A DNA stretch of 64,000 bases from NCBI GenBank assembly GCA_963693285.1, contig OY848917.1:32561245-32625244 (forward strand), written 5' to 3'. The notes below the pieces were generated by a model. It was not told the DNA's origin and searched no databases. It saw only the letters and a list, made by a program, of their open reading frames with translations. Made by a program: the position numbers and the translations under genes. This DNA comes from Xestospongia muta. Lineage: Eukaryota; Porifera; Demospongiae; Haplosclerida; Petrosiidae. Shown one piece after another: positions 4,757-60,960 of the stretch; the first letter of the stretch is position 1; every line of letters starts with the position of its first letter.

Positions 4757-6127
4757 AATAATCAATTCATAACTATTATTATTACACCTTGTACTGATGT
4801 TGAGCTTGACTTGTAAATAAAGACCTGATGTCTTTAGTACCATTGCTGCTTTTCTTTTTCCACTTTCCCATGACACAATGACATGAACTGAGGACACTTA
4901 GTCACAGCTGCACAAACACATGTAGTAACCTGAAGTATACTGAAGTCCTCCAACAATCAAGCAGTCATGCATGCAGTTAAATTTTCACAAGTCATTGTCA
5001 ACTCAAGTGTAAATACATGATCATGTTTGAAGTTAGCAGTAAACTTGACTGCTGCAGTGCATGATCAAACGTGTAGTGCTACATGTAATTTTTTTCTCAT
5101 GGATTTTCAGAGTTTTACTTTAATTCCAACCCCCCCCCCCCCTTGGGAATTTCTGGATCAGCCACTGTTAGTACTTGATATTGAGAAGATATTGGACATA
5201 CTAACTATGAGAATAAGTACATATTGTAATAATTAATAAATTGTTTTTTATGATCAATTTATTTTTGATACCTTTTTAAAAATCAGTTCTTGAACTTTTA
5301 TTAATGAACAAATTTGGGTGGCGTGGTTTGTTCTCATGTACTAAGAAAGAACGCAAGTATTAAAGATAATGACTGTGCCATCTATAAAACTGGTAGGTGA
5401 CTGTAGTATATATATGTGCTGTGTTAATACCATTAACCACTAATTGATCATAGTAGTATGTAGTTTATTGTACCATAACACACACACACATATGCATATT
5501 ATAAAACTGTGAACTCAATCATATTAACATTGAAGTATATGCTATCACTAAATAAGAGTATGTGTCTATTTACTAAGTCAATGAAGTTTGTTATTGTAGT
5601 AATAGATCAGTCTATAATCTTATAGTCATATATGTGATAATAAACACATTATGATGTTAGGTCTATTAGTGTAGAGGTAGAGTCAATGATTACTACATGT
5701 AGTATTAGATAACCTTAATAGCTAAATAGAACAATAGAATAAAAATATATAGAAATGATCAGTTAATACATAGTCTAAGATATCGTCTGAAAGGTCATTG
5801 ACACACCTTTGAATGTCACCCAAAGTGTTAACAATATTCATAATGTACAAAGTAGTCTTAACTAAAATTCTCAGTAAGAAAAATTAATATCATAATGATG
5901 TTATTAACTCTATAGTCTTATTACCTAATTTGTGACACTATATGACTGTCTACATGATGTTACATGATGTTCAAGTACACTTGTATTATGTTAGTACATG
6001 TTATACATGGATACATGTATTTATTACATATCATCTATGTTGTCTAGTAATATATATCTCTGATATATTTCTAAAATATACTACTATCAGTTATTTCATG
6101 TATAATGTGTCTCTCTTTTTATATTAG
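4757..6127. other. Region upstream of first recognised ankyrin exon
   Basis: No start codon, signal peptide or first exon can be fixed for the large gene that follows. A 13-base poly-C run sits at 5130-5142 and a short (CA)n at about 5480-5489. The rest is AT-rich with only short open frames. The promoter and first exon may lie here, or left of the transposon cluster. Confidence 0.4.
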
Positions 6128-6226
6128 GAGGAGTCTCTTTATGATGCAGCTGGTAATGGTGATCTTGATGTAATAAAGAGTGCCATAAAATATGGCTCTG
6201 TTCATGTTAATGCTATAAAGTATCAT
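6128..6226 (+). CDS. Ankyrin exon 1 (first recognised)
   Basis: A 99-bp phase-0 exon lies between TATTAG and GTGAGT. It reads EESLYDAAGNGDLDVIKSAI and continues to a 33-residue repeat. The opening lacks the TPLH core (ESLYDAA instead), as is usual for an N-terminal capping repeat. That suggests few ankyrin repeats precede it, although a start exon must still lie upstream. Confidence 0.75.
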
Positions 6227-9200
6227 GTGAGTACATGTCATATAATAACTAGAGACCTTATAGACATGAATTATAGCAAATAAATACCCAATTTACAACA
6301 ACTTACTTGGTAGTATAGTATACATAGAAATATCGTGGAACCTCCAATAATAAACATTCCCAATAGTAGATACCAATGGATAATTACTTTAGAATGGATT
6401 GATCTTCCATTGACTTTAATTGAATTACATCTTCTTAAATGTAGACACCTCCATTTTCAAACAACAGACCTTTCTACTATTCTAGAAATTTCTAGCACAT
6501 TCAATTTTACCTTTAAAATGATAGTGGGTGTGTCTAATGTAGTCCATGTGAACTTATTTATACAGTCTATGGCACACCAAAAGATATTTGACAATTTCTT
6601 TTTCTTTATATACTTTGTTTAAACTAGATCAGATGTTTATTTGAAATGAAAGATATCAGTAACATGTAATACACATGTACTTATATGTGTTTGGCTTTAA
6701 CCTTTGAACTAAAGGCACTTCATTCTATAAGGGACACTTGTCCTTATGGTATCCACTATTTGGAGATTCCACTGTAGAGAAAATCTAATACTATTTGAAA
6801 GACAATTATAAATGATGTTCATAGTAATAGTAATACCAGGTTTATAGTACAGGTTTAACATTCCTATTCAAAATAATACTACATTGAAGTAAAGTATAAA
6901 TGATCTGATAAACAAATCTACATTTTACATGTGACTGTTTTATATGAACCTGATATATACAAATTGTATTATGTAAAAGATACATGTCACATATATAGGT
7001 TTAATACATTGTGATTGTGATTATATTGTATGATGTTTCTTTTGTCTTGTATTTAGTGTTGTAGCACCATGTTACATAATGCTGCATCTAATGGTCATAA
7101 TCATGTAGTCAGTTATTTACTTAGTATTGGTGCAGACCCCAATATACAAAATAAGGTGAATATTTATAAGATAATGTTATATATTAAAGTATGGACATTA
7201 GGACACATATATATTAAAATGCAATATACAAGGTCAAAGTTAATATGTACAGACATTAGTTATAGTCATGTGACTTATAGCCAATCAAATATCTTAATTT
7301 TAATCAGATGACTGTGAATTGTTAGGTTATATTTTCTTAATAAAGCACTATTATCAATAATTAATAGTTGTTTTATTTAAATTAAAGAAAACAAAATGAA
7401 ATTATTAAATTACAAACTATTAGTTACCTTTCTTTGAATTTTTTATAATTATAAAAGACATCTATGTTATAATTGTCCATCATTATATCACATTAAATAA
7501 ATAATTAAACTGGTTAATAGTTGTAAGTCACATGACTATAGCTAAGTCATTATAAACTACACAGGTGATGTCATTATGTGTAGTAATAAATGTACAATAA
7601 TAAAGTGTTGAAATTTTCAAGTTTTTGAAAATTCATTGTTATTAAAATTTTTTATGTGCAATTTTAGGTCAGGTTGGTTAATGTAATTACCCTACAAACT
7701 AACCAATAGGTATAAATGTAGATTTAACATTAATATACAATTGAATATATAAACAGAAATCAGTTAATACATTTCTATAAACATTAATTTTTCAAATGAG
7801 AAATCACACATTATTCACAGACTGGTACTGAGACTGACAATTTTCTTTGATTTTGATGAATAGCAACTTAGAGACTTGGATATAAAGATCTACAGATTAT
7901 TCTCTTGTTATATCACTATCACAAATCTCAAGAATTGCTAGAATTGAAATATTAGTGACACTAAAGTTTACTTAAATGGATGTGTTTAACATGGTAGTAT
8001 ATTTTCATTTTGTAGTTGAGCAGCTATCCACAAATAACATGGAAATAAATATGTCATAAATATTTATATCATTACATACATTTACCTTTGGTTTGTGCAG
8101 TAATTTATATGTCCTAATCACTATGTTTACTTTATAATAACATAATACACATATAACTGCTTTATGACTAATTTTAGCATTTTTATTAATTTTAACGATT
8201 ACCAGTTTCCTTTTTTATTACATGTTTAATCTTCACTATCAATTAGTGTATGTAGATAGGACAGTACTATGTGTTCTTAAGAAAACATTTAATTATCTTT
8301 CTTCCTTTCATGGATTTTTTGTTATTGTAACCTCAACCTCAATGATAATTGTAATGGTTTAGTAGCATCAAAGTTTGACACACCTATTTCAATGAAAGCT
8401 ATTTCTTTCAGTGAAGATTTAAAGTATATTATTATAAAGGATCTGTTAAGGGAGATATCCTCTGTTTAAGACATACACTTGTATGCTTTAGTTATTTAAA
8501 AGAATATCCTTGATGTATAGCTATTATCATTTAACAAGTCTAAAAAATTAATGGGAGAATCCATCCAAGTTTGTTGTGAACTTTGCATTGATGTAAAAAT
8601 GTAATTAAGTACATAATTAGTTTATTATATACATTGTAGTTTGTACTAATATATGACATTAATATTATATTTTATTCAGCGTGGCCAGACTCCATTGTAC
8701 ATAGCATGCTCCAATGGTCATGATAAAGTAGTACAAGTATTACTAGACCATGGTGCTCAAGTGGTTGTTCAAGATGAGGTCAGTGACATATCATGTATTC
8801 ATGTTAAGTTATGTAACAAAACAGAAGTTGATGAAGCTACTTTAGTAACACAGGAAATTAACAAAAATGATGTGCATGTATTGTCATGTTGTTAAGCTAT
8901 GACCTCAATTGTGGAATATCAATATAACATATAACCTTGTAATGAATTATATTCATTTTTGTCAGTTCAGTATTAACATCTATCTTGAGCCTTCCTTGAT
9001 TAAAAGATTCTCTGAGTCAAATAAAATAATGTCAGGCATTAGATAACTCTAAACCCTTACTTATTAAGCCTTATCTGACAAGAAATATGAACTTTAACTG
9101 TTGTTTTTTCTGTCACATTTCAGCCTTTCTGAGTTACTTTATAACAAGATTACCTATGAATAATTTCTTTAGCTTTTTAAAGCTTTAATGATTATGAATG

Positions 9201-12200
9201 GTTTAGTAGCATCACAGTTTGACACACCTATTAATAATAACTCAATGGAAGCTATTTCTTTGAGTGAAGATTTAAAGTATATATTATAAAGGATCTGTTA
9301 AGGGAGATATCCTCTGTTTAAGACATACACTTGTATGCTTTAGTTATTTAAAAGAGTATCCTTGATGTATAGCTATTATCATTTAACAAGTCTAAAAAAT
9401 TAATGGCAGAATCCATCCAAGTTTGTTGTGAACTTTGCATTGATCTAAAAATGTAATTAAGTACATAATTAGTTTATTATATACATTGTAGTTTGTACTA
9501 ATATATGACATTAATATTATATTTTATTCAGAGTGGCCGGACTCCATTGTACATAGCATGCGCCAATGGTCATGATAAAGTTGTACAAGCATTACTAGAC
9601 CATGGTGTTCAAGTAGATGTTCAAGATGAGGTCAGTGACATATCATGTATTCATGTTAAGTTATGTAACAAAACAGAAGTTGATGAAGCTACTTTAGTAA
9701 CACAGGAAATTAACAAAAATGATGTGCATGTATTTTCATGTTGTTCAGCTATGACCTCAATTGTGGAATATCAATATAACATATAACCTTGTAATGAATT
9801 ATATTCATTTTTGTCAGTTCAGTATTAACATCTATCTTGAGCCTTCCTTGATTAAAAGATTCTCTGAGTCAAATAAAATAATGTCAGGCATTAGGATAAC
9901 TCTAAACCCTTACTTATTAAGCCTTATCTGACAAGAAATATGAACTTTAACTGTTGTTTTTTCTGTCACATTTCAGCCTTTCAGAGTTACTTTATAACAA
10001 GATTACCTATGAATAATTTCTTTAGCTTTTTAAAGCTTTAATGATTATGAATGGTTTAGTAGCATCAAAGTTTGACACACCTATTTCAATGGAAGCTATT
10101 TTTTGAGTGAAGATTTAAAGTATATATTATAAAGGATCTGTTAAGGGAGATATCCTCTGTTTAAGACATACACTTGTATGCTTTAGTTATTTAAAAGAAT
10201 ATGCTCGATGTATAGCTATTATCATTTAACAAGTCTAAAAAATTAATGGCAGAATCCATCCAAGTTTGTTGTGAACTTTGCATTGATCTAAAAATGTAAT
10301 TAAGTACATAATTAGTTTATTGTATACATTTTAGCTTGTACTAGTATATGACATTAATATTATATTTTATTCAGAGGGGCCAGACTCCATTGTACATAGC
10401 ATGCGCCAATGGTCATGATAAAGTTGTACAAGCATTACTAGACCATGGTGTTCAAGTGGATATTGCAGACATGGTCAGTGACATATCATGTATTCATGTT
10501 TAGTTATGTAACAAAACAGAAATTGATGAAGCTACTTTAGTAACACAGGAAATTAACAAAAATATGTGCATGTATTGTCATGTTGTTAAGCTATGACCTT
10601 AATTGTGGAATATCAATATAACATATAAATTTGTAATGAATTATATTCATTTTTGTCAGTTCAGTATTAACATCTTTTTTGAGCCTTCCTTGATTTAAAG
10701 ATTATCTGAGTGAAATAGATATCAGGCATTAGGATAACTCTAAACCCTTACTTATTAACCCTTATCTGACAACAAATATGAAATTTAACTGTTGTTTTTT
10801 CTGTCACATTTCAGCCTTTCTGAGTTACTTTATAACAAGATTACCTATGAATAATTTCTTTAGCTTTTCAAAGCTTTAATGATTATGAATGGTTTAGTAG
10901 CATCAAAGTTTGACACACCTATTTCAATGGAAGCTATTTTTTGAGTGAAGATTTAAAGTATATATTATAAAGGATCTGTTAAGGGAGATATCCTCTGTTT
11001 AAGACATACACTTGTATGCTTTAGTTATTTAAAAGAATATGCTCGATGTATAGCTATTATCATTTAACAAGTCTAAAAAATTAATGGCAGAATCCATCCA
11101 AGTTTGTTGTGAACTTTGCATTGATCTAAAAATGTAATTAAGTACATAATTAGTTTATTGTATACATTTTAGCTTGTACTAGTATATGACATTAATATTA
11201 TATTTTATTCAGAGGGGCCAGACTCCATTGTACATAGCATGCGCCAATGGTCATGATAAAGTTGTACAAGCATTACTAGACCATGGTGTTCAAGTGGATA
11301 TTGCAGACATGGTCAGTGACATATCATGTATTCATGTTTAGTTATGTAACAAAACAGAAATTGATGAAGCTACTTTAGTAACACAGGAAATTAACAAAAA
11401 TATGTGCATGTATTGTCATGTTGTTAAGCTATGACCTTAATTGTGGAATATCAATATAACATATAAATTTGTAATGAATTATATTCATTTTTGTCAGTTC
11501 AGTATTAACATCTTTTTTGAGCCTTCCTTGATTTAAAGATTATCTGAGTGAAATAGATATCAGGCATTAGGATAACTCTAAACCCTTACTTATTAACCCT
11601 TATCTGACAACAAATATGAAATTTAACTGTTGTTTTTTCTGTCACATTTCAGCCTTTCTGAGTTACTTTATAACAAGATTACCTATGAATAATTTCTTTA
11701 GCTTTTCAAAGCTTTAATGATTATGAATGGTTTAGTAGCATCAAAGTTTGACACACCTATTTCAATGGAAGCTATTTTTTGAGTGAAGATTTAAAGTATA
11801 TATTATAAAGGATCTGTTAAGGGAGATATCCTCTGTTTAAGACATATACTTGTATGCTTTAGTTATTTAAAAGAATATGCTCGATGTATAGCTATTATCA
11901 TTTAACAGGTCTAAAAAATTAATGGCAGAATCCATCCATGTTTGTTGTGAACTTTGTATTGATCTAAAAATGTAATTAAGTACATAATTAGTTTATTATT
12001 ATACATTCTAGCTTGTACTAGTATATGACATTAATATTATATTTTATTCAGTGGGCCCAGACTCCATTGTACATAGCATGTGTCAATGGTCATGATAAAG
12101 TTGTACAATCATTACTAGACCATGGTGTTCAAGTGGATATTCCAGACGTGGTCAGTGACATATCATGTATTCATGTTTAGTTATGTAACAAAACAGAAAT

Positions 12201-15200
12201 TGATGAAGGTACTTTAGTAACACAGGAAATTAACAAAAATATGTGCATGTATTGTCATGTTGTTAAGCTATGACCTTAATTGTGGAATATCAATATAACA
12301 TATAAATTTGCAATGAATTATATTCATTTTTGTCAGTTCAGTATTAACATCTTTTTTGAGCCTTCCTTGATTTAAAGATTCTCTGAGTGAAATAGATATC
12401 AGGCATTAGGATAACTCTAAACCCCTACTTATTAACCCTTATCTGACAAGAAATATGAAATTTAACTATTGTTTTTTCTGTCACATTTCAGCCTTTCTGA
12501 GTTACTTTATAACAAGATTACCTATGAATAATTTCTTTAGCTTTTCAAAGCTTTAATGATTATGAATGGTTTAGTAGCATCAAAGTTTGACACACCTATT
12601 TCAATGGAAGCTATTTTTTGAGTGAAGATTTAAAGTATATATTATAAAGGATCTGTTAAGGGAGATATCCTCTGTTTAAGACATACACTTGTATGCTTTA
12701 GTTATTTAAAAGAATATGCTCGATGTATAGCTATTATCATTTAACAAGTCTAAAAAATTAATGGCAGAATCCATCCAAGTTTGTTGTGAACTTTGCATTG
12801 ATCTAAAAATGTAATTAAGTACATAATTAGTTTATTGTATACATTTTAGCTTGTACTAGTATATGACATTAATATTATATTTTATTCAGAGGGGCCAGAC
12901 TCCATTGTACATAGCATGCGCCAATGGTCATGATAAAGTTGTACAAGCATTACTAGACCATGGTGTTCAAGTGGATATTGCAGACATGGTCAGTGACATA
13001 TCATGTATTCATGTTTAGTTATGTAACAAAACAGAAATTGATGAAGCTACTTTAGTAACACAGGAAATTAACAAAAATATGTGCATGTATTGTCATGTTG
13101 TTAAGCTATGACCTTAATTGTGGAATATCAATATAACATATAAATTTGTAATGAATTATATTCATTTTTGTCAGTTCAGTATTAACATCTTTTTTGAGCC
13201 TTCCTTGATTTAAAGATTATCTGAGTGAAATAGATATCAGGCATTAGGATAACTCTAAACCCTTACTTATTAACCCTTATCTGACAACAAATATGAAATT
13301 TAACTGTTGTTTTTTCTGTCACATTTCAGCCTTTCTGAGTTACTTTATAACAAGATTACCTATGAATAATTTCTTTAGCTTTTCAAAGCTTTAATGATTA
13401 TGAATGGTTTAGTAGCATCAAAGTTTGACACACCTATTTCAATGGAAGCTATTTTTTGAGTGAAGATTTAAAGTATATATTGTAAAGGATCTGTTAAGGG
13501 AGATATCCTCTGTTTAAGACATATACTTGTATGCTTTAGTTATTTAAAAGAATATGCTCGATGTATAGCTATTATCATTTAACAGGTCTAAAAAATTAAT
13601 GGCAGAATCCATCCATGTTTGTTGTGAACTTTGTATTGATCTAAAAATGTAATTAAGTACATAATTAGTTTATTATATACATTCTAGCTTGTACTAGTAT
13701 ATGACATTAATATTATATTTTATTCAGTGGGCCCAGACTCCATTGTACATAGCATGTGTCAATGGTCATGATAAAGTTGTACAATCATTACTAGACCATG
13801 GTGTTCAAGTGGATATTCCAGACGTGGTCAGTGACATATCATGTATTCATGTTTAGTTATGTAACAAAACAGAAATTGATGAAGGTACTTTAGTAACACA
13901 GGAAATTAACAAAAATATGTGCATGTATTGTCATGTTGTTAAGCTATGACCTTAATTGTGGAATATCAATATAACATATAAATTTGCAATGAATTATATT
14001 CATTTTTGTCAGTTCAGTATTAACATCTTTTTTGAGCCTTCCTTTTTTTAAAGATTCTCTGAGTGAAATAGATATCAGGCATTAGGATAACTCTAAACCC
14101 TTACTTATTAACCCTTATCTGACAACAAATATGAAATTTAACTGTTGTTTTTTCTGTCACATTTCAGCCTTTCTGAGTTACTTTATAACAAGATTACCTA
14201 TGAATAATTTCTTTAGCTTTTCAAAGCTTTAATGATTATGAATGGTTTAGTAGCATCAAAGTTTGACACACCTATTTCAATGGAAGCTATTTTTTGAGTG
14301 AAGATTTAAAGTATATATTATAAAGGATCTGTTAAGGGAGATATCCTCTGTTTAAGACATACACTTGTATGCTTTAGTTATTTAAAAGAATATGCTCGAT
14401 GTATAGCTATTATCATTTAACAAGTCTAAAAAATTAATGGCAGAATCCATCCAAGTTTGTTGTGAACTTTGCATTGATCTAAAAATGTAATTAAGTACAT
14501 AATTAGTTTATTGTATACATTTTAGCTTGTACTAGTATATGACATTAATATTATATTTTATTCAGAGGGGCCAGACTCCATTGTACATAGCATGCGCCAA
14601 TGGTCATGATAAAGTTGTACAAGCATTACTAGACCATGGTGTTCAAGTGGATATTGCAGACATGGTCAGTGACATATCATGTATTCATGTTTAGTTATGT
14701 AACAAAACAGAAATTGATGAAGCTACTTTAGTAACACAGGAAATTAACAAAAATATGTGCATGTATTGTCATGTTGTTAAGCTATGACCTTAATTGTGGA
14801 ATATCAATATAACATATAAATTTGTAATGAATTATATTCATTTTTGTCAGTTCAGTATTAACATCTTTTTTGAGCCTTCCTTGATTTAAAGATTATCTGA
14901 GTGAAATAGATATCAGGCATTAGGATAACTCTAAACCCTTACTTATTAACCCTTATCTGACAAGAAATATGAAATTTAACTGTTGTTTTTTCTGTCACAT
15001 TTCAGCCTTTCTGAGTTACTTTATAACAAGATTACCTATGAATAATTTCTTTAGCTTTTCAAAGCTTTAATGATTATGAATGGTTTAGTAGCATCAAAGT
15101 TTGACACACCTATTTCAATGGAAGCTATTTTTTGAGTGAAGATTTAAAGTATATATTATAAAGGATCTGTTAAGGGAGATATCCTCTGTTTAAGACATAC

Positions 15201-30200: not shown

Positions 30201-33200
30201 AATCACTTACCAAACAAGCCAATATTAACATTGCTAATGAGGTATGTACTATTAGTGTATCTATAATTTCTGTAAACTTCAAAAAATTCAGCAATTTAGA
30301 TTGTTGTATTTTAATTTTAGTGTGGTTTCTAAAATTATCATAATTTTCTAATGCATTAACAAAATTAATGATCCACACCACCTCTGTACATAGACAGTGC
30401 TCAGTTAAAATGTTTCCCAGGACTATAGGCTGTTTGGAGAATTGACACTCTAGATCTGAGACACTACTCAGTAAACATGTTCTCGTATAATGTACTCATA
30501 GACTTAATTATTTTTTGAAATCAAAATAATTTGATTTGAATAGAGTGTTGTTATGAAATATTGTATTAAAATAAAGAAACATTTGATGTACTAATTGTTA
30601 AATGGTTTATATTTACAGCTGATAACTATATAAATATAACTTATACTTACAGTAATGCTATTGCTAACAGAATGTGTTACAAAGTACCTCATACTTCAAA
30701 TTGTCATAATGTACAGACTGAAATATACTTGTTGATGTAGTTGTCATTTTAATGCAAATTATTTGTTACGTGTGTAGTAATTCAATAGTTCAGGCTCAAC
30801 ATTAAGGGGTGCGGTTTAGTATTAACCACATTAATTTGATAGACATCACATATGATGATGTAACACTTATTCCATTATAAGTTGTAGTTGTGTCAGCAAT
30901 TATACTGAATGCCCTGATCATTTAACAATCCACACTTAGTTATCTTAGAAACTAGCTTGATAGTTTAGATTTCAATGAGTCATATTCCTATTTATCATTA
31001 TATGACATATAGATAATAAAATAATACACAAACTGGTGGTTAGATAAATTGACACAAAAATAGTTTTAAGTATATCAAGTAGTGATGCAATAGTTACCAT
31101 GGTTATCTGTATACCCAATTATATAATATACTATAACTACATTTATATTCCAATTATAAATATATTCATCTGCTCTATTTAAATATTTGAATTTACAAAT
31201 GTTGTCATTACAGAGAGTATATAGATATAAAGGATATTGATATTATTATAAATTTGTCAATTGATTTGTTGACAAGGTCATAATTAAAATGAACAGATTG
31301 GACTACAGTACTATAGATGCTAGTAATAGAGATAATAGAGATAATTACACTATGTTATCAGTTCAGTTATCATTTCTTGAACTATGACACAGTAGCCTTT
31401 CTACAATTTTTTATTAATATATACCTCAAATTATTAAGATATGATCATATCCATTCAATATTTAGTGGTTTACTTTTTGTAAATTATGTTCTGAGACTGT
31501 ATGTTACACATTCTTGTTAAGATTTGATGTAAACAAAAGGAGCATTGACAAAACTCTATTACATGTGCATCTCTTTATTCTCATTTTATTTTACATTATA
31601 TTAGGAAGGAGAGACAGCACTGATTGTAGCTGCTAGGTGTAACCATGCAGATGTTGCATCTTTTCTTATTGAGAATGGTTGTTCTGTTGACATTAAGGAT
31701 AAAGTAAGTTAATATAGTACTGTTTAGCAAAGAAACGTATTTTAACAAACATACGTTTAGTTTGACAAGCTAGTCGTTCCTCCTAATTGACAAACTGTTG
31801 AGAATAGCATTATCTAGATGTGAACTAGGCCTACTGCCCTATTGGTTGTGGAATTTAGGACAACAGTCTTGTCCCTGGACTACCACAGTTAACCTGGTAT
31901 GATTGCCTTGGTTCCTTGAGATAGGAAATGCTGCAATATTGACATTTATCCACACGTGTCTTGTTTCCTGTCTAGTCTAAAAATAGTAATTGTAGCTTTA
32001 GACCTCATATGATAATAAAGATATTTGTTTACCAAGATTTGAATTAAGCAATTTTATTTGACACCATGATTCCTGGCATGGTAGTCTGTGATTGAAACTA
32101 GTAAGACAATATCACAATGATTATAACTTGTTATTACAATTGACACATCAGTGGAATCATACATGACCTCTTTTCTTTACGTTTGTTATTCTTTAAATTA
32201 GATGCTAAATTCTTTATCTATACAAAAGCAAATAACAGCAGAATTTTTTTATTAATCTAGAATACTACAGGTAGAATGTGAGCAAACATTCGTGCTAGCA
32301 TTAAATTGTGAAGGTTTTGTTCAAGTTAATATTTCTATAAATCATTGTAACAATTGTAAAAACGATTAATAACCACTATGTCAACATTATGTGGTACACT
32401 CAAACATTTGGACATTATATTTTTAATAGCAATTCCATCTAGACTCTGTCCTCAGACTACCACAGCTGATAGCAAAAGTCATCAAAATCAACATTACTTA
32501 GTCAAATGTTAACAAAATATAAATGTTAACAATATGTACTTTGAATATGTATTTTGTAACAACTATATAGATGTTAGCTGTTATATTGTAAGAGAGTGGT
32601 AGTCTGGGGATGAGGCTAGTTTCTTGATGTCACAATGCCAGTATTAAGTTGTTGGGCAGATGAGTGTTTTGTTTTCAATTATATAACAACAAATCTGGTT
32701 AAATTTAACTTTCCTAATATATACTAAATTTTCAAATGTCTAATACTTGCCTTAGTTATCTCTACTCAACATTCTGGTTTGTTAACTTCTTTGTTCATTA
32801 TATTTTATTATGTTTGACATAGTGATTGACATTTCTAGCAACATTAGTGATTACCATAGTATTTTGTTAACACTAGATATCTAAACAAAAAGTCAGAAAT
32901 ATCACTGTAACTTTAGAATGAAATGTTATCATGGAAATCCTCACATATGTTTTACTTATTATTCTATCTTGTATTGACTAGTAGAGTAGTTTTGATGGAA
33001 CACTTTACATACTGTCTGTAATTTTTGTTTATAATTTGTTAATATTGCAATCTTTCTCTCTAGACTTAATTCTTGGAAATACAACTGTAAAATAGAAAAG
33101 ATTCTTTGTCATATGTTTGATGTTTCATTATTGTATAATGAATAATTTTAAATTTATAGCAATTTAAAGTGCTTTGCCAGAGTAACATACAAATAATCAA

Positions 33201-36200
33201 ACTAAATTCTTTAATCCTCACAATGTAGAGGTGGCAAGGGTTAATTATAATCTGTTGCTTATTCCATGTTTGTCTTTTTATTCTCAGAATGGTTACACTG
33301 TTTTACTTGTTTGCTAAACATAGTCTTTCACAGCAATACTATGGACAGTATCATCAAAGTAATTTAAGGACTGTTTTTACATTTATAATGTTGTCTTTAA
33401 AGTGTCATTGGAGATCTAGTAGGTAGAAAATAGTAAGGCAATAACCTAACTTTTCTTTATCTGTTTAATTGATAAAATGGGATATAGTACTGTGACATTA
33501 TGTGACAAAGTTGTTACTGATAATTTCTAATATAAGCAACTATCTTGGAATATTTCAAATATACATGCTCCTCTGGTCAATTTTCATTTTTACTTGCTCT
33601 AGCATATGCTCCCACCAGTACACTTGGCATTTGAATTATTTTTGCAAGTGTCATATTATTTAAAACTGAACTAGCCAAAATTTTAATGCATTTTCTTTGT
33701 AAAACATGATGGTACTGTCATTTAGTCTGTCTGTATCTAATATTTGTTTTGCTTAGCTTCTACCTGGTATCAGATGACATCTATACTCACACATATTATG
33801 ATGTATTTGTAGAGATAGTTATGCATCATGGAAATGTCTTTTTGCACATTTGAATGAGCTGTTCTTTTGGTTGATATGCCATGATTCTAGTTGACATCGT
33901 TTCTAGAGGATGGTCAAGGATTGACAATCTTGTTAAGATTTGGTCCTAACAAGCAAACAATGACAAATTTCTAAATACATAAATATATGTTCAGTGTACA
34001 TCTGTTTATTCTTTTTATATCATACATTTATTAGGATGGAAAGACTGCACTCTATGTGGCTGCTAACAATAACCATACTGATATTGCACTTCTTTTGATT
34101 GAAAAAGGCTGTTCTGTTGATATTAAGAATAATGTAAGTTAATATAGGGTTGTAGTACTGATTAACAAAACCACTTACATAGTAGTTCATATGTTTATAT
34201 ATTGATAGTTTATAGTCTAGCAAGCTATAATGTCCTCTTAGCTGACAGCCAAATCTCTCCACCTTATTAACAAATCTAAATACATGTACAGTGTAGATCT
34301 CTTTATATCATACATTTATTAGGATGGAAAGACTGCACTCCATGTGGCTGCTGAGAAAAACCACACTGATATTGCACTTCTCCTGATTGAGAGTGGCTGT
34401 TCTGTTAATATTAAGAATAATGTGAGTTAATATAGATTGCACACTTCCTAACAAAGCTACTTATGATATTAGTTCATATGTTTACATATCACAAGCTAGC
34501 ATCATAGCTAACAGTCAAATCTCTCCACCTCATTAAAAATTTCTAAAAACATGTACATAAATACATCTATACTTTACATGTACATGTTAGTTAATTTGTG
34601 TTGTCTGTATCACACTTAGTTATAAAACAGTTTAAAAATAAAGAGCTCAGACATTGAATACCTGCAATGAGCTATGACTACATGAAGCCACTTTGTCTTC
34701 ATTCTAATCATATAAGTAGTGCTGCTATAATAAAGGGATCCTCTGGCCCTTAAATTATTCTTCCTACTCCATTAATATGACTTTGAAGCTTTAAAACTAT
34801 TGTTAGATGTAATATAAATTACACATTATATCCTGTATTGATATCTATATTAAGTGCAAATAGCCTTGAACAGAAAAATAAAACAAACAGTAAAAATATA
34901 TCAATTGTTCTTGAAACTTCCACACTGTTACAACATATGTCATTCTTGAAACTGCATATTGAAATGAACAAAATGGATTATGTTATTATAAACACTGTTT
35001 AACTTCTTTAAAAGATGATCATTTTATTATTTGTACATATAATTAATGTAATATAAAAATGGCTTACTGGCTTATCATTTTCTACCTTTATCCAACTAGG
35101 CCATGCATTTTGAAGTCAATAGATGTAATTGTAATATAGTAGTTCGTTTGTTTACATATCTGTACTTAAACAAGCTAGCCTCTCCTCAGCTAAAGGGCAA
35201 ATGTTTTCACTTTATCAATAAACTGATGGGTATAGTAGGGTCTAAAAGCAAAGTAGGTCTATTGGCCTATTGAAATATGTGAAATGTAGAACAGTAGTTT
35301 TGTCTCCAGACTATCACAGTAAGTTAAAGTCTTGTATCTTGCCTCGATTATCTTAGGACGAGAAATATTGGAATTACACACAAGTCTTATTTCTTGTCAC
35401 GTCTAACAATAGTAACTAGTGCCAGATGTCATGTAATGATAATAACATTCATATGATGAAATTGTATTTAGTCATTGCCACAATACTGGTGTACATATCA
35501 TTTACTGTTCCAAGAAAATTAATCAAAGATATCATACTACATTTCGTTATGAGGCACAGTTGTTTGGGACAAGACTAACTAACCTCAGCCAATCATTTTG
35601 ACAACAGTAGGAGTGGCTAGCTTATTAAACATCTATCACTTTATATAATGATACATAATTGGTGATAAACTATTACATGTGGTCAAAATCTATATGTAGT
35701 TGTCTTCTTTCTATATATTTTTGATTATCTAAATATTGAGAGGAAAACATCAGAAAAAATCACATCTTTTAGTCTATATAGTTTATAGGATATAATTAAA
35801 CAACATATTGTATTTACATGTATACTATATTCTATGTATTAAATATTTACATCACATACATATTTATCTTATCAATATGTAAAATGATATACATTAATCT
35901 ACTAAAGTAGCTTTAAATGAGGTGAACCAAATAAATAGCAAATGATTGTCTTTGTATTCTTAGGATGATGACACTGCCTTACACTATGCAGCCTACAATA
36001 ACAATGTTGACATTATGAAGGCAATTATGAACCATACTGTTCAGATTGATGCTACCAATGATGTGAGTAGAAATTTAAAAATACAACTATGTTAAGAACC
36101 TTCCCTTATACAAGATAGACAGTGTGTGACATTGTCCTAACATGGTTTGTTATACATATACATATATACATATATGTTCACTTTCATCATTTTGTGGTAT

Positions 36201-39200
36201 TGTTGTAAATGTCTTTTTTAATAAAATAAAACTCACATGTATTAACTGCTGATGCACATGGCAACTAATGAATTTAAATAGCTATTGCTGTGAACATTTC
36301 ATATATAGTGTGACTGATCAAGGCTCAAAATTATATAAATGTTTCTGAAAGCAGAGAATCATCTTTGAGCTGAACCAAAATTTCCTCTATTGCCCAGTGT
36401 TCTAACATGTTAAATATGTATACTATTATTCTTCCATTATATGCTTCAGTATTTTTATTTAATCAGAACATCCTTGACCAGGTGTTTATTTAAAGTAGGT
36501 TTGTATTTATCTTCAAATTTCTCAACAGTTAACTAATACATCACTAACACTCACAACTGAATAGTAAAATATTATAACATGTTAGAAAATGCTAACATGT
36601 GATCCAAAGCACACTACTAACTGTATCCATAATAGGCATTTCTTCCTATTAGGTGTTTTTATACAACCATAATACTAATGCCTTGATATTTATCTAATGC
36701 AGACATTTATTCAAAGTAGGCAGATAGAAAAGTAGTAACTTAATTTATCTGTATATTTGTGGAATTTAATAAAATGGGATATAGTATTGTGCCACAAACC
36801 TGTTACTCTTTATTTTTAATATAAGCAGCTTTCCTATATAGGTACACATCTAGTCAATTTCCATTTTTATATGCTCTAAAAGCAGGCTTTCTTTGGCTCT
36901 GTAGCTTTTTGTTATAAATTAGAACTAAATAGACTGGAATATTAGTGCATGTTTGTATTATGAATATTGAATTTAGTTCATTCATAGTTTGTTTAAACTT
37001 ATAATAGAGAGTAATTGCTGTTTCAAAGTTTATAAAGATACATGGCTACTATAATGAAAAACATAGAGCTTAGGTTAAAGATAACAAAAAAACAGATTGG
37101 AATCAACAGTTCACACAACATACACAGTTGTATATGTTAGTTAATTTGTGTTGTCTGTATCACACTTTGTTATAAAACAGTTTAAAAATAAAGAGCTCAG
37201 ACATTGTTATAGCTAATACCACATGAAGCCACTTTGTCTTCATTCTAATCATATAATTAGTGTTGCTATAATAAAGGGATCCTCTGGCCCTTAAATTATT
37301 CTTCCTACTCCATTAATATAACTTTGTAGCTTTGAAATTATTGTTAGAAGTAATGTAAATTACAAATTATATCCTGTATTGATATCTATATTAAGTGTAA
37401 TTAGCCTTGAACAGTAGAAATTAAACAAACAGTAGACAAATATCAATTGTTCTTGAAACCTACACATTTTTACAACACATGGAAATGTCATTCTTGAGAT
37501 ATCATATTGAAATGAACAAAATGAATCATATTATCATAAAAAATGTGGTGTTTTAACTGCTTTAAAAGATGATTATTTTATTATTTGTACATATAATTAA
37601 TGTAATGCTATTCTTTCTCTCTTAGCTTGGAAACACACCACTTCATGATGCTTGTTCTGAAGGTTCAGTTGATGCTATCAAGTTTCTCATATCATCTGGA
37701 CGAGTGGATCCGATGTCCAGAAATAATGATGAAGAAGCACCTATGGAACTTGTTCCTCAAGATCACGAGAGTCGTTTTGAAATTTTAAAAATGTTTGAGC
37801 CATTTCAGCAAAGTCAAGCTGACTTCCCTGTGGAATCCTATGGTAAAGTCTTTATGTGTGGCAACACTACTTCAGGGAAAAGTTCTCTTACTGCTGTCAT
37901 CATGGAACGAGCTAAGAAACCAGCTGATCACAAGTTCGATACATCAGAATGTGTGACAGTAGAACCACTAACAGCTGGTATTAAACCACATACCTTTATA
38001 AGCCACGAAATTGGGAATGTTGTCCTCTACGACCTTGCTGGTCATAGGGAATATTACAGTAGTCATGCTGCTGTCCTAGAAAATCTCATGTTAAGCTCGC
38101 CTGCTGTTTTTTTGATCCTTTTCAAGCTTATTAATGCCATTGAGACAATGAGAAAAGAGTTATACTACTGGTTTAACTTCATTGAAAACATCAGCAAAGG
38201 AATGAAAAGTTTAAAGCGATCACAAATTGTTCTCATTGGAAGTCGACTTGATGAGCTGACTACTAGCTTGGATCCAATATCTGAAGTGGTGGATGAAGTT
38301 GTTGAGAAAGCAGCCTATTCACAAGAATTCTGTGGGTTTATACCAATGGAATGTCATCGTCCTGGAGGTAAAGGAGTCAAAGAGTTTATCGTTACATTGT
38401 CAAAGAGCTGTAAAGCTGTTCTCGATCGATCTGACAAAATCAGTTTTTATTGCCACGTCCAATACTCTTTTCTGCAGCTTCTTAAAAGAGTAGCTATTAG
38501 TTTGGAAGAGCTATGTGCTTTGTTAAGAGAACGTAATGATCCTTCTCTTCCATCTGAAATGTCAGTGTTACTTGAATTCCTGACCACTTTAAGTGATAAG
38601 GGTCTTATCTTATTCCTTAGAAATGAAAATGGTCAAAGTTGGATAGTTATAAACAGGGGTGCTCTACTATCAGAAATCAATGGTGTTCTCTTTGCCCCAG
38701 CAGCAATCAAACGTGTTTATCGAGATATGGCTAGTAATACTGGCATTGTACCTCTATCTGCTCTCAAAGAAGCATTTGCTCATCACAATATTGATATGTT
38801 AGTTGGATTTCTTCAAAGTCTTCAATTTTGCCACATGATTGAATCAAGTGCACTCAATGATCTTGAAACTAACATATCAACATCAGTACCTCTGCCGTTA
38901 GATGAGATCCTATTTTTTCCAGCACTCATTAGTGCTGAACCACCCACTGATATCAAAATAGAGAATGGATTAGGATGGTGTCTGTGGTGTCCTAATCCCA
39001 ATGAATTTCTGTCTACAAGATTTCTTCACATCCTCCTACTTTGCCTCGCCTATTTTTATTGCCTTCCTACTCGAATAACACCTGGTAAAGTTAACGTAAC
39101 TAATCCTGTTGTACAGAAGTTAGCTCGTCGTTGTATAGTATGGACTAATGGTATATATTGGAAGAACAAATTTAAGGTTGTAGTTGAAGTATCTGAACAC

Positions 39201-41013
39201 GATCGTTGTGTTACAGTACTTACATCAAACAAGGAAATGGATGAAAGTCGCCAAGTTTTTAACTCAGTCATTAAGAAAGTCCTGAGTCTTAAGAAGCAGT
39301 TTTGTTCATGTACAAGTCATGAATATATGATTGCACCAGATCAGGTATCTACTGCTCATACTCTTGAGGTCTGTAAACGTACGCTTTATTCAATGGAAGA
39401 TGTTGCTGTTGCTGTTCTTACTAAATCTGACATAATGGACACAAAAGACACCACTTCACTTGATGTCAAACAGATTGTAGGAACTAAAGATCCATTTCTT
39501 CACATTGCTCCTTTGGTAACAAAAGCACTGTTCAATACAAATAATGCCGATTTACCAGTTCAAGATGACTTTCTTCAACACATTCAAGATGTCTGTAGTG
39601 ACATATTTTTCACATCTGTTGAATGTACTCACATCACTATAAAAGAGCACTGTAGCCGTTTGAGTGTCTTTGCTGGACGTAATCCTTTGGTAAGTAAATG
39701 CACTATTATTTATTTACTGTATATGTAACAATGTACACGTAGTTTTATTTTTGAACATTATCTTATTGTACTGCTCTATCTACATCATGGACAGGATCTT
39801 GCCAACCTTGCCTTACCTCCATTAACTGAAGATGACATTGAACGTGCCTCCAAATCACTTGTTAAGAAGATATGCCAAGGTTTGTCAAGTTTGTTTGCTT
39901 ATGTTTTACTTCTGTGTCTTTTTACTAGACTCCCCTAAAGCAGGTGAAGCTGTTAATTCAAGTACTCCATTATCAATTAATCAATTATAAATAGTTAATT
40001 GTTATTAGTCACATTCTCATTTCTCATATAATATAGGGACATCAAATGATACTACTGATTCATCTTGTTTTAATACAGCAGTAGAAAGTATATTAGGTAA
40101 GACTACAAATATTTATTGTATAGTATTTCACATAGTTCAAGTATATACAGAATTGTATGATACAATTTCAGACAGCCATTTATTGCAATATATCCTATTG
40201 TTATAGGCACACACTCTAACGCTAAAGTAGCTAATACAATATATCTCTTAGTATATTACTGTATCTTTCTATTGAGGTCATGTTTTTGTTGACAACATTA
40301 CATTATATTAATGAAGTATTTTTATCTTCAGACAAAAAACCTAAAAAAAATCATCTTCAACAAGTCCTTGGTCCTATTCAATATAAATGGAAAGAGATTG
40401 GAGAAGCCTTGGAAATACCATATGGAACAATCAAATCTATTGACTATGATCGTGGCTATAATGTCACTGACAAGCTTTCTAAAGTCTTGCAAACCTGGAT
40501 TGATACACAGCAATCTGATGTGACCTGGAAGAACCTTATCAATGTCATCAGAGAACATCCTGTCAATGAACCAGTTCAAGCCAATGCTATAATAGACTTC
40601 TTAGCAAAAACAGAGATATCTGAACGTTACATTGAACATGCCTCTAAATCACTTGTTGAGAAGACATGCCAAGGTTAGTCTTTTTTTGTTTAGTAATGTA
40701 TTGCTTTATTACATGTTATCTATATGTATGTATCTGTATACATCCACATGTAATTTTAATGTGTGTGAATGTGTGGTATATTGCTTATATTAACTATCTA
40801 CCAGAAAATATTCAGGCTCTATTAGCTGCCATGACAACATGTATAGTATATGATTACTTATCATATGATAATGTATTTAGTGTGTGTGTAACTTTTATTT
40901 CTGTTGTCTTTTCTGTAGAAAAGAATTGCAGTTCAAGAATCAAGTGTAATTTTATTCTGATCTTAGGAGCTATGTGTGTTGTAGTGCTGGCTTATTTTAT
41001 GTATACTTCATAA
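6128..41013 (+). CDS. Giant ankyrin-Roc-COR-Death-TM protein, at least 39 exons (5' end not found)
   Basis: This is a composite plus-strand gene model built from GT/AG-bounded exons that all keep one frame. Thirty-four ankyrin exons (6128-36062) lead into the Roc-COR exon 37626-39689, then 39795-39879, 40037-40096, 40332-40673 (Death) and 40919-41013 (membrane tail, stop TAA). The summed length from the first exon is about 1,998 residues. Ankyrin repeats bind partners, Roc-COR is a GTP-dependent switch and dimer module, and Death domains mediate homotypic signalling. The order recalls DAPK1 without its kinase, or sponge/cnidarian ANK-Death expansions. The C-terminal hydrophobic exon suggests anchoring in a membrane with the rest cytosolic. 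No kinase, signal peptide or start codon was identified, so the N terminus is missing from this model. No canonical AATAAA follows the stop closely. All introns between ankyrin exons are phase 0; those after exon 36 are phase 1. Treating it as one gene rests on frame and strand continuity, not on a transcript. Confidence 0.75.
7057..7155 (+). CDS. Ankyrin exon 2
   Basis: A 99-bp phase-0 exon with acceptor ATTTAG and donor GTGAAT. The protein begins CCSTMLHNAASNGHNHVVSY and ends in LLSIGADPNIQNK, a canonical ankyrin helix pair with a GAD-type turn. It differs from the later array, so it belongs to the non-amplified part. The 1.5-kb intron that follows (7156-8679) shows no other gene. Confidence 0.85.
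8600..17460. repeat. Tandem array A of about 838-853 bp exon-intron units
   Basis: Spacing between successive exon starts is 852, 843, 838, 839, 838, 838, 838, 838, 849 and 848 bp. Conserved intron landmarks in every unit include AGGATCTGTTAAGGGAGATA (or a close variant), GTAGCATCAAAGTTTGACAC and CTGAGTTACTTTATAACAAG. Within 10375-14664 the units alternate as IADM and IPDV types, giving a higher-order dimer of about 1,676 bp. Confidence 0.9.
8680..17199 (+). CDS. Ankyrin superblock A: eleven near-identical one-repeat exons
   Basis: Eleven 99-bp phase-0 exons lie at 8680-8778, 9532-9630, 10375-10473, 11213-11311, 12052-12150, 12890-12988, 13728-13826, 14566-14664, 15404-15502, 16253-16351 and 17101-17199. 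Each encodes 33 residues of the form xGxTPLYIACxNGHDKVVQx followed by LLDHGxQVxxxDx. All are preceded by a conserved TGACATTAATATTA...TTCAG acceptor region and followed by GTCAGT. Variation is concentrated at residues 1, 3, 11 and 20 and in the last five positions: VQDE, IADM, IPDV, ILDE, IPDK, VPDK. Exons at 12052 and 13728 start with Trp (TGGGCC), where others start AGGGGC or TTTGGC. Introns are as conserved as exons, showing recent amplification of whole genomic units. No exon has a stop or frameshift. Confidence 0.85.
18304..18405 (+). CDS. Ankyrin exon 14 (YGRTPLH type)
   Basis: A 102-bp phase-0 exon between ATTTAG and GTAAGT. It begins YGRTPLHIAYLRGKDDIVKL and ends IESGASNLEAVKV, so it encodes 34 residues, one more than the standard repeat. 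A close paralogue lies at 29789-29890, where HIAY is replaced by HNAY. Helix and turn consensus residues are intact. Confidence 0.85.
18664..18756 (+). CDS. Ankyrin-like exon 15 (DTLLLKYAKEGN type)
   Basis: A 93-bp phase-0 exon between TATAG and GTATAT. Its 31-residue product begins DTLLLKYAKEGNINCVRQSL and ends in TKQANINIVNE. It is a degenerate ankyrin repeat lacking TPLH and shortened by two residues. It always follows the YGRTPLH exon; the second copy is at 30149-30241. The pair is a co-duplicated unit. Confidence 0.75.
18780..27300. repeat. Tandem array B of about 840-957 bp exon-intron units
   Basis: Successive exon starts are spaced 857, 853, 848, 840, 855, 854, 849, 954, 846 and 656 bp. 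The units around 22294 and 23149 are almost identical to the one at 19753 over exon and downstream intron. The long interval before 25806 contains an inserted piece, and the short interval before 27308 has lost much of the usual intron. Both show local rearrangement. Confidence 0.9.
18896..27406 (+). CDS. Ankyrin superblock B: eleven more near-identical one-repeat exons
   Basis: Exons lie at 18896-18994, 19753-19851, 20606-20704, 21454-21552, 22294-22392, 23149-23247, 24003-24101, 24852-24950, 25806-25895, 26652-26750 and 27308-27406. They are the same GHDKVVQ-type repeat as superblock A, all phase 0 with GTCAGT or GTCAAT donors. Several carry GQNPLY instead of GQTPLY (19753, 22294, 23149, 24003, 26652), losing the conserved Thr of the TPLH motif. 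The exon at 25806 is 90 bp: three codons near its 3' end are missing in frame and His of GHD is Asp, giving a 30-residue repeat. No stops or frameshifts occur inside any exon. The local spacing of 840-857 bp breaks down at both ends of the block and after 25.3 kb. Confidence 0.85.
27650..27748 (+). CDS. Ankyrin exon 27 (KGRTPLS type)
   Basis: A 99-bp phase-0 exon with acceptor TATATAG and donor GTAAAA. It begins KGRTPLSIASYKGYIEIVQL, followed by LLKANACTDIAKN, a complete ankyrin repeat. Its counterpart is absent from superblock A, where only AAAG followed by GTCAGTGAC is left (17710-17713). Confidence 0.8.
27749..29102. other. Intron without other recognisable features
   Basis: About 1.35 kb between ankyrin exons 27 and 28, AT-rich and single-copy in appearance. 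I see no open frame, RNA gene or array unit in it. Confidence 0.5.
29103..29201 (+). CDS. Ankyrin exon 28 (DDKSLLY, GHDKVVQ type)
   Basis: A 99-bp phase-0 exon between TTTAG and GTCAGT. It begins DDKSLLYIACYNGHDKVVQV and ends VHVDVPDK. It belongs to the GHDKVVQ family but is separated from the arrays by more than 1 kb of unrelated intron. It has lost the GxTP start (DDKSLL). It is the 23rd member of the family. Confidence 0.85.
29789..29890 (+). CDS. Ankyrin exon 29 (second YGRTPLH copy)
   Basis: A 102-bp phase-0 exon, a near copy of 18304-18405, with the same GTAAGT donor and closely matching introns on both sides. HNAY replaces HIAY and GND replaces GKD. Confidence 0.85.
30149..30241 (+). 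CDS. Ankyrin-like exon 30 (second DTLLL copy)
   Basis: A 93-bp phase-0 exon, a near copy of 18664-18756. It reads DTLLLKSAKEGN where the first copy has DTLLLKYAKEGN, and ends IANE where the first ends IVNE. The donor is GTATGT. The following 1.36-kb intron (30242-31604) is unlike the one after exon 15, marking the end of the duplicated block. Confidence 0.75.
31605..31703 (+). CDS. Ankyrin exon 31
   Basis: A 99-bp phase-0 exon between TATTAG and GTAAGT. It begins EGETALIVAARCNHADVASF and ends in GCSVDIKDK. With exons 32 and 33 it forms a subfamily ending GCSV(D/N)IK. The 2.3-kb intron that follows (31704-34034) contains a stretch around 31740-32000 that recurs, diverged, at 35140-35440. Confidence 0.85.
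34035..34133 (+). CDS. Ankyrin exon 32
   Basis: A 99-bp phase-0 exon between TTATTAG and GTAAGT. It begins DGKTALYVAANNNHTDIALL and ends GCSVDIKNN. It is a close tandem paralogue of exon 33, only 288 bp downstream; the intervening intron resembles the flanking ones, so this is a recent local duplication. Confidence 0.85.
34323..34421 (+). CDS. Ankyrin exon 33
   Basis: A 99-bp phase-0 exon with donor GTGAGT. It begins DGKTALHVAAEKNHTDIALL and ends GCSVNIKNN. Substitutions against exon 32 cluster at the repeat surface (Y/H, NN/EK, EK/ES), the positions that usually contact ligands in ankyrin repeats. Confidence 0.85.
35964..36062 (+). CDS. Ankyrin exon 34
   Basis: A 99-bp phase-0 exon between CTTAG and GTGAGT. 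It begins DDDTALHYAAYNNNVDIMKA and ends VQIDATND. It is a divergent single-copy repeat immediately before the GTPase exon. The following intron (36063-37625) contains a block that repeats intron DNA of 34560-35100. Confidence 0.85.
37626..39689 (+). CDS. Roc GTPase - COR exon with last ankyrin repeat
   Basis: A 2,064-bp phase-0 exon (688 codons) with acceptor CTCTTAG and donor GTAAGT. Residues 1-33 are a final ankyrin repeat (LGNTPLHDACSEGSVDAIKF). After an acidic linker comes a Roc domain. Its P-loop GNTTSGKSS lies at about residues 79-87 (37860-37886), switch II DLAGHREY at about 136-143, and a G4-like element GSRLDEL at about 205-211 (around 38238-38258). SRLD replaces the canonical (N/T)KxD. 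Residues from about 270 match COR: a winged-helix-like stretch with VLLEFLTTLSDKGLILFL, then WIVINRGALL and a later LFFPALI strand. Ankyrin-Roc-COR order is known in DAPK1-type proteins. The predicted role is a GTP-controlled cytosolic switch coupled to the Death domain downstream. The first Met-like codon in this exon is a GTG inside the repeat, so translation does not start here. Confidence 0.88.
39795..39879 (+). CDS. Linker exon, partial Death-exon-like tail
   Basis: An 85-bp exon between GGACAG and GTTTGT that ends in phase 1. It begins DLANLALPPLTEDDIERASK and ends SLVKKICQ. The second half closely matches the end of the Death exon (HASKSLVEKTCQ at about 40637-40672). It therefore looks like the 3' piece of an earlier Death exon that lost its domain core, and now serves as a linker. 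Confidence 0.7.
40037..40096 (+). CDS. Short Ser/Thr-rich linker exon
   Basis: A 60-bp exon, phase 1 to phase 1, between ATATAG and GTAAGA. It encodes GTSNDTTDSSCFNTAVESIL, with no domain. It was chosen because it joins the flanking exons in frame with consensus borders; its small size makes it the least certain exon of the model. It could be skipped without changing frame. Confidence 0.55.
40332..40673 (+). CDS. Death-domain exon
   Basis: A 342-bp exon (114 codons), phase 1 to phase 1, between ATCTTCAG and GTTAGT. Helical Death-fold pattern: a W followed by IGEALEIPYGTIKSID, then KLSKVLQTWID, then DVTWKNLINVIREHPVNE. These match the Death consensus of Trp in helix 2, 'I..id', a 'WL' helix and 'TWknLi.vL'. 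Death domains recruit adaptors by homotypic contact. Its position after Roc-COR parallels DAPK1. Two other copies exist in the window: 42880-43181 (intact but early stop) and 55410-55733 (broken). Confidence 0.85.
40919..41013 (+). CDS. C-terminal transmembrane-tail exon
   Basis: A 95-bp last exon entered in phase 1 from TTCTGTAG and ending at TAA (41011-41013). It reads EKNCSSRIKCNFILILGAMC and then VVVLAYFMYTS. A basic, Cys-containing start is followed by about 20 hydrophobic residues and a very short tail, the layout of a tail-anchored protein. No signal peptide was seen, so post-translational membrane insertion with all other domains in the cytosol is the simplest reading. The same exon recurs at 55967-56061 with its hydrophobicity kept. 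Confidence 0.75.
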
Positions 41014-41450
41014 CATTATACTATAGAAAACTTGAGAACATTTAATTTTTTTCTTAATGAAAATAGTTTCTTAATGAATTTTCATTTATGACTGTAAAGT
41101 TCGCAACTCGATAACAACTCTTTCTAAAACAAATTGTACCAATATATATACTAATGAAAATGAATATTATAATTTAAAGTCCAAAGTCCAAGGGATACTA
41201 CATCTCCCCCAGTCCAAGGGATACTACATCTCCCCCTAGTCAAAAGATGATTATTTTATTACTTGTACATATAATTAATGTAATATAAGAATGACTTATT
41301 GGCTTATCATTTTCTACTTTTATCTATCTAGGCTATCCACTTTGAAGTCAGTAGATGTAATTGTAATAATATTGTCTCATTTATTATCGTCTGTCAATTA
41401 AGTGTAAAACCAACAGTACTGTAGAACTTAATGAATTCTTTTTCTCTTAG
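41014..41450. other. Intergenic/intron stretch between gene and second copy
   Basis: It contains a 26-bp direct duplication (AGTCCAAGGGATACTACATC plus CTCCCC, at 41185-41210 and 41211-41236). From 41245 it matches intron DNA at 35010-35140. No gene is seen. Confidence 0.6.
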
Positions 41451-42838: not shown

Positions 42839-42879
42839 GAGCATTACATTATAGTAATGGTGTATTTTTTTATCTTCAG

Positions 42880-50040: not shown

Positions 50041-51531
<1,491 letters not shown>

Positions 51532-58989: not shown

Positions 58990-60960
<1,971 letters not shown>

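Follow-up and report, generated by a model that had tools for sequence, protein, structure and literature searches.

Among described systems, DAPK1 carries its ankyrin part, a short repeat block, ahead of the Roc domain, and the ankyrin genes of vertebrates too have 99-bp exons that each encode one repeat. According to sections of PMC6337361, DAPK1 represents the metazoan ROCO group that lacks LRR and has a Death domain, COR provides most of the contact through which Roc-COR proteins dimerise, and the DAPK1 kinase is reportedly controlled by the nucleotide on Roc. The LRR-ROCO genes of brown algae are described in sections of PMC11378527 as candidate immune receptors in which four sites of the concave face are under positive selection and the LRR exons are alternatively spliced, and the TRADD-N proteins of the sponge Amphimedon are discussed as immunity proteins in a part of PMC8195603. 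Here we analyse a gene in 64,000 nucleotides of the demosponge Xestospongia muta (GenBank GCA_963693285.1, contig OY848917.1), which we call the window; it corresponds to C1:32561245-32625244, C1 being the contig that carries the gene, and the genome assembly searched comprises 158.0 Mb in 28 contigs. An initial annotation had read the locus as a receptor-like switch with the order ankyrin repeats, Roc, COR, Death and a membrane helix. The best explanation, which we advance tentatively and place just short of an even chance, is an apparently intact gene of a lineage-expanded demosponge ANK-ROCO-Death family (ANK for ankyrin repeats), encoding a tail-anchored, ligand-recognising and Death-signalling switch.

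In our splice model, positions 6128 to 41013 of the plus strand read as a single gene with 32 ankyrin exons, a Roc-COR exon, a Death exon and a hydrophobic C-terminal tail, and the spliced model of 5805 nt (1934 codons) has no internal stop. All ankyrin exons have AG...GT borders and phase 0-0, and 31 of the 32 measure 99 bp, in line with what had been annotated, the remaining one being 90 bp long. The array of one repeat per exon also stands, and its count of 34 exons is revised to 32 plus a repeat no. 33 at the start of the Roc exon: our own scan likewise returned 34 candidates, of which one coincides with the beginning of the Roc exon, while another (41451) is part of a degenerate second Roc copy. 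A further scan of the window for open 99-bp segments bordered by AG and GT and scoring as ankyrin found 31 on the plus strand and none on the minus strand; each of 10 block shuffles gave none, and six other lengths tried (90 to 108 bp) gave 0 to 4 each.

The first ankyrin exon found (6128-6226, EESLYDAAGNGDLDVIK..., 99 bp, phase 0-0, with an acceptor side conserved in four paralogues) and the second (7057-7155, 99 bp) precede 11 A-type exons of 99 bp spaced 838-852 bp apart (8680-17199; starts 8680, 9532, 10375, 11213, 12052, 12890, 13728, 14566, 15404, 16253 and 17101), where types A to E are our labels. A C-type exon (18304-18402, 99 bp) is followed by 10 further A-type exons of 99 bp (18896-27406; starts 18896, 19753, 20606, 21454, 22294, 23149, 24003, 24852, 26652 and 27308), and the 90-bp A-type exon, with the same borders and phase, lies at 25806-25895. 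The region 27650-29887 holds a B-type (27650-27748), an A-type (29103-29201) and a C-type exon (29789-29887), and 31605-36062 holds three D-type exons (31605-31703, 34035-34133 and 34323-34421) and an E-type exon (35964-36062). The 2064-bp exon at 37626-39689 encodes the last ankyrin repeat, the Roc GTPase and COR. Downstream are a linker exon (39795-39879, phase 0-1, ...EDDIERASKSLVKKICQ), a second linker exon predicted from splice sites and frame only (40037-40096, phase 1-1), the Death-domain exon (40332-40673, phase 1-1) and the last exon with the hydrophobic tail and the stop (40919-41013). All these features are on the plus strand. In 15 cases among the 23 A-type exons the scan with 34 candidates preferred a longer reading of 129 bp (once 120 bp), starting at an AG that lies in frame 30 bp further upstream; the 99-bp reading is favoured because of the repeat register and the polypyrimidine tract. 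Since exon 6128 directly follows an in-frame acceptor TAG, the start exon must lie upstream, where an alignment of the upstream regions of five genes did not reveal it. Scans of the window gave no Rfam match, no tRNA and no match to phage records.

The domain order proposed by the initial annotation is borne out by the spliced model, the Pfam match of the Death exon and the structural matches of Roc-COR. The Death exon scores 26.7 bits for Pfam PF00531 (Death) against a cut-off of 22.6. The window's own Roc copy reaches 24.5 bits for Pfam Roc, under the cut-off of 27, and Roc is matched at E<=1 by all 40 sequences of an alignment of family members (A1, 60-93% identical). The AlphaFold model from A1 was poor (pLDDT 55.7), and an alignment of 101 more diverse sequences (A2) was used instead. 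The P-loop residues G79, G84 and K85 and the motif D136xxG139 are invariant across A2. The AlphaFold model obtained from A2 matches the PDB structures of LRRK1/2, of RocCOR and COR alone from the bacterium C. tepidum and of Roco2 from the archaeon M. barkeri. By sequence COR is weak, with COR-B detected in 2 of the 40 members of A1 and at 22.6 bits, against a cut-off of 27, in the relative P0132. Compared with PDB, profile A1 has its strongest match in the Roc domain of LRRK2 (E 0.0075); the first 60 PDB matches of profile A2 are, judged by their names or by the stretch matched, proteins with ankyrin repeats and are uninformative on COR. A Roc domain with COR directly after it, as modelled, supports a ROCO protein. 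Neither LRR, kinase nor WD40 was matched in the parts scanned. The lack of a visible kinase, already remarked on in the initial annotation, holds as far as the 1934-aa model, which lacks the start exon, contains none and 13 upstream open reading frames on the plus strand and one on the minus strand, mostly short, have no Pfam match; small exons may escape such a scan.

The tail, EKNCSSRIKCNFILILGAMCVVVLAYFMYTS, contains the 19-residue segment with the highest hydrophobicity in the model (Kyte-Doolittle mean 2.41, at residue 1913 of 1934) and is conserved in the family members g3 and L007 and in a copy at 55.97 kb. The next maximum, 1.96, lies inside Roc, and the tail is the only strong hydrophobic segment of the 1934-aa model, which lacks the start exon. 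Because this sole segment is at the C-terminus, the product is predicted to be tail-anchored and otherwise cytosolic, a prediction that the missing start exon could change. We considered a surface receptor and do not favour it, since the tail is C-terminal; the model, as far as it extends, has no second strong hydrophobic segment, and the term "receptor-like" is not supported in the sense of the cell surface.

The array and the Roc-COR-Death part could belong to different genes, or the array could be a tandem repeat that is dead or was created by the assembly. Such a reading would fit the failure to find the start exon and the presence of just six ankyrin exons between 27.75 and 37.6 kb. Against it, all 32 exons are open with AG/GT borders, their splice flanks are conserved and their positions constrained (see below), and relatives keep the two parts together. 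Two of these, P0132 (Roc at 24.0 bits, besides its 22.6 bits for COR-B) and P0165 (Roc at 42.7 bits, above the cut-off), were found through a 42%-identical family member from contig C4 and show 14 ankyrin matches and then Roc in a single open reading frame. Four neighbouring paralogues, read from the first ankyrin exon to Roc, have the same order with different arrays of at least 11, 17, 35 and 24 ankyrin exons (83 of 87 are 99 bp long). Along C1 a one-strand order recurs, consisting of a 242-bp upstream element, the first ankyrin exon and Roc, and for 22 of the 32 copies of the element a Roc exon is listed on the same strand no more than 65 kb downstream. These data agree with the initial assignment of array and Roc to one gene, and separate genes or a dead array appear highly improbable.

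The gene is apparently one intact member of a very large family. A pattern for the WCLWCP motif, which lies in COR by position, TGGTGYYTNTGGTGYCCN, has 175 matches in the genome (99 on C1 and 76 elsewhere) and none when reversed; this number refers to motif copies, pseudogenes included, and not to annotated genes. A second motif pattern gave 134 matches and a control of 0. Among 641 candidate Roc-COR places 64 were scored and 52 of these are free of stops, and all 150 places scored among 1434 candidates for the Death exon match. An in-frame TAG in part of a subfamily of 61% identity (9 of the 64 Roc-COR places) was examined as a possible defect and rejected: the three of the nine that were read, C1:20998900-21001050, C3:7730280-7732430 and C9:3658970-3661110 (L032 to L034), are exons without a stop, and the flag most likely arose because of an acceptor TAG. 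The paralogues vary in repeat number and in C-terminus. Three of 10 family members (the window gene, g3 and L007) end in Death plus tail, and in five (L002, L003, g1, g2 and g4) the Death exon ends in a stop codon, while L005 and L008 could not be judged. No similar tail exon occurs downstream of g1 and g2, the two with downstream sequence complete enough for the comparison. The membrane tail of the initial annotation is therefore kept for the window gene and dropped as a trait of the family. The Death exons also fall into different types, with 25-70% identity to that of the window. Our search of the open-licence PMC literature found no paper describing such a sponge family.

The repeat block is amplified and homogenised, as had been noted: among the array self-matches listed, those longer than 650 bp are 82-95% alike with introns included, the exons from 8680 to 27308 (array about 8.3-27.2 kb) are mostly spaced 838-857 bp apart, and 16 distinct sequences account for the window's 22 A-type exons of 99 bp. 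When A-type exons were compared with one another, flanks included, the nearest neighbour was in the same gene for 31 of 44 (mean of 2000 shuffles 15.4, maximum 28). Nearest neighbours that are mostly in the same gene fit local amplification or conversion. For 20 of the 22 window A-type exons of 99 bp, divergence is 0.0445 and 0.0389 in the splice flanks versus 0.10-0.11 in the introns.

We calculated the ratio of nonsynonymous to synonymous differences per site (pN/pS) for the Roc-COR exon and for the faces of the ankyrin repeats. The Roc-COR exon of eight paralogues gave 0.30. For the repeats we used five positions each that we take to be the contact positions of DARPins, their numbering being our assumption. 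At these positions the 34 distinct A-type exons have a pN/pS of 1.80 (bootstrap 1.12-4.13), compared with 0.69 elsewhere; the 16 distinct exons of the window have 4.57 (1.97-21.5) and 0.58, the D-type exons 1.29 (0.65-2.90) and 0.47, and the E-type exons 0.98 and 0.67. A permutation test shows replacements per codon to be enriched at the same positions in both A and D (P 0.0003 each). The second test used the concave and convex sets published in PMC8781854, as given in the part of that paper used here. Replacements are enriched at its nine concave positions (P 0.0037 for A and 0.0014 for D), with pN/pS of 1.22 (0.82-1.84) for A, 1.72 (1.15-4.00) for the window and 1.08 (0.68-1.50) for D, and show no enrichment at the convex positions (P 0.91 and 0.21), where the D-type pN/pS is 0.50. 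Replacement is thus concentrated on the ligand-facing side of the repeats. The DARPin set and the exons of the window suggest positive selection, which is partly supported and not proven family-wide. Of the variable ligand-binding array of the initial annotation, the variable face is supported.

These ratios also bear on the possibility that the family is expressed and that unequal crossing-over, in a chromosome rich in repeats, produced its expansion and variability as a side effect. The protein would then be a scaffold or a DAPK1-like regulator of stress or cell death whose faces vary by relaxed constraint. The units were amplified recently, with nearest neighbours mostly within the gene (31 of 44 against 15.4), broken copies are present, the overall A-type pN/pS is about 1, the D and E contact ratios are not clearly above 1, and the convex A-type ratio of 1.56 (0.77-6.64) is no lower than the concave 1.22, a high value explained by the few synonymous changes at those positions. 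Relaxed constraint, however, does not agree with the constraint on non-contact positions (0.69 in A, 0.47 in D) and the strong constraint on Roc-COR (0.30), with the concentration of ligand-face replacements in two exon types, or with splice signals that are better conserved than the introns. We consider this explanation rather unlikely, although it is the first of the rivals.

Upstream of the first ankyrin exon lies the AT-rich, non-coding element of 242 bp (3551-3792, plus strand), which is common to family members and is a candidate shared promoter. C1 carries 32 copies of it (82-100% identity), the window's included, four weak matches lie elsewhere, and the window's copy is 98-99% identical to nine others. 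In g1 and g2 the element is 99% identical to that of the window, compared with 73-94% for the other aligned upstream blocks. A same-strand match to the first exon within 3.5 kb or to the second exon within 5 kb follows 19 of the 32 copies, and none of the 32 when strands are flipped. A coding exon was rejected for this element, which has stops in all six frames and an indel that breaks the phase. Next to it, window positions 3793-5167 form an insertion absent from g1, g2 and g4, and within it is a repeat (4101-4739) that recurs at several further places in the 200 kb examined.

The exon design and the element could also be read as a sign of somatic diversity resembling that of Dscam, in which subsets of exons would be spliced cell by cell and the element would mediate promoter choice among paralogues, giving each cell its own protein. 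Any subset of the ankyrin exons would stay in frame because all lengths are divisible by three and all phases are 0-0, the exon flanks are similar, nine further copies of the element share 98-99% identity with the window's, and brown-algal ROCO genes of like design splice their LRR exons alternatively (PMC11378527, in part). A constant full-length transcript nevertheless accounts for the same sequence, and we regard somatic choice as improbable. The most far-reaching proposal is a repertoire for immunity or self-recognition, in which some 175 or more Roc-COR copies, the shuffling of exons inside a gene and from one gene to another, Death exons of a soluble or a membrane-tailed kind, a shared 242-bp promoter and cell-specific splicing would yield distinct proteins for each sponge or each cell; in this complete form it is a doubtful proposal to which we give little credence.

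The tail-anchored switch of an expanded ANK-ROCO-Death family is therefore the explanation we develop here. It starts from features read from the sequence itself, namely the exon architecture, the domains, the tail, the size of the family and a conserved switch set against a variable face, and it supposes that the full array is translated. In the protein, a superhelix of 33 or more ankyrin repeats, long and cytosolic, would be joined to a Roc-COR GTPase and a Death domain and tail-anchored to an intracellular membrane, and the concave ankyrin face may bind a ligand, either a peptide or a protein. Both the number of repeats and the residues of the face may diversify as single 99-bp phase-0 exons, which never break the frame, are duplicated, converted and selected. 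Ligand binding, or the loss of an inhibitory fold, would alter the Roc-COR dimer or its nucleotide state through GTP switching, and the changed state would expose or cluster the Death domain at the membrane, where it might recruit Death adaptors and lead to a cell-death or immune output. As in the initial annotation, we infer a possible role of the gene in immunity or self-recognition, with microbes or self as what would be recognised; microbes, symbionts and other sponges are candidates for what is sensed.

Several points weigh against this explanation, the convex A-type ratio being one. The constraint on the Roc-COR exon is uneven, with pN/pS of 0.52-0.67 over roughly 100 codons at either end and 0.07-0.37 between them. 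The exon types were assigned by regular expressions, with one D-like exon left as "?", identical sequences were dropped (A-type 44 to 34), the selection tests on the repeats covered types A, D and E (A and D for the PMC8781854 sets), leaving aside both N-terminal exons, the B and C types and the exon of 90 bp, and the E-type test used 12 exons (11 distinct) of the 16 so labelled. The searches scored part of their candidates, 64 of 641 for Roc-COR, 150 of 1434 for the Death exon and 150 of 1989 for the first and second exons, the last with 103 matches listed; relatives of the tail exon were found through conserved DNA, by which a diverged tail exon could be missed. As for the element, g3 has no match to the 242 bp, g4 has 94% identity against about 86-96% in its flanks, with no clear contrast, and for 13 of the 32 copies no match to the first or second exon is listed nearby, four of them being partial copies at 30.87-31.31 Mb. 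This shortfall is perhaps partly due to the 103 matches listed by the first- and second-exon search.

Relics of the family and other repeats surround the gene. A degenerate tandem copy (41435-43181, plus strand) has a frame-shifted Roc-COR, 96% alike in DNA, which a deletion has joined to a stop-terminated Death exon. An isolated relic of the Death and tail exons (55370-56103, plus strand), with a stop inside the Death part, follows the gene at a distance of about 14 kb. Further relics lie between genes, such as the Death-exon-like fragments at L029 1642-1758 and C1:31982786-31982902, each with an internal stop. The window also contains a minisatellite of 142-bp units in about 15 copies (44711-47084), an inverted repeat of about 1.2 kb (49591-50754 and 59771-60953, 81% alike) with long CT/GA runs not far from it (51230-51528 and 59101-59419), and an open reading frame (52566-53018) that matches the integrase core family PF24764 of Pfam (37.5 bits, cut-off 26) and is probably the remnant of a mobile element.

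The family draws interest by its size, its exon design and its conserved switch beside a variable face, and it may bear on how sponges distinguish self, symbiont and pathogen. By its predicted domains the window gene would be a ROCO gene by Roc and COR, with the order of DAPK1, no kinase found and a gene design like that of the brown-algal LRR-ROCO genes. It shares with DAPK1 the order ankyrin, Roc, COR and Death. The DAPK family, however, has an N-terminal calmodulin-regulated kinase before the ankyrin repeats, whereas the window gene has no kinase that we found, at least 33 repeats with one repeat per exon, a C-terminal tail anchor and very many copies. The Roc-COR fold is shared with LRRK1 and LRRK2, in which LRR, kinase and WD40 stand in place of Death and tail. 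Among early-branching animals, Trichoplax has at least 17 ROCO genes, some with Death or CARD, and the section of PMC11378527 concerned mentions neither ankyrin exon arrays nor a comparably large family. Amphimedon offers a parallel sponge expansion of 357 proteins in which Death-like and TRADD-N domains are mostly combined with further domains such as ankyrin; TRADD-N differs from the domains found here, and Roc-COR is outside the description in the part of PMC8195603 used here. The brown-algal LRR-ROCO genes, as far as sections of PMC11378527 describe them, also place repeats ahead of Roc-COR, each on one small exon of the same phase and in numbers that vary between genes. Their exons are LRR exons of 72 bp and phase 2 instead of ankyrin exons of 99 bp and phase 0, their main architecture is LRR-ROC-COR instead of one with Death and tail, they are mostly dispersed and not clustered as in the sponge, and they number 9-47 ROCO genes per species against 175 motif matches. 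The sponge family thus exceeds 47, the largest ROCO count in those sections, bearing in mind that motif copies are compared with genes. If the recognition repertoire proves true, repeat-per-exon ROCO receptors would have arisen twice, in distant multicellular lineages.
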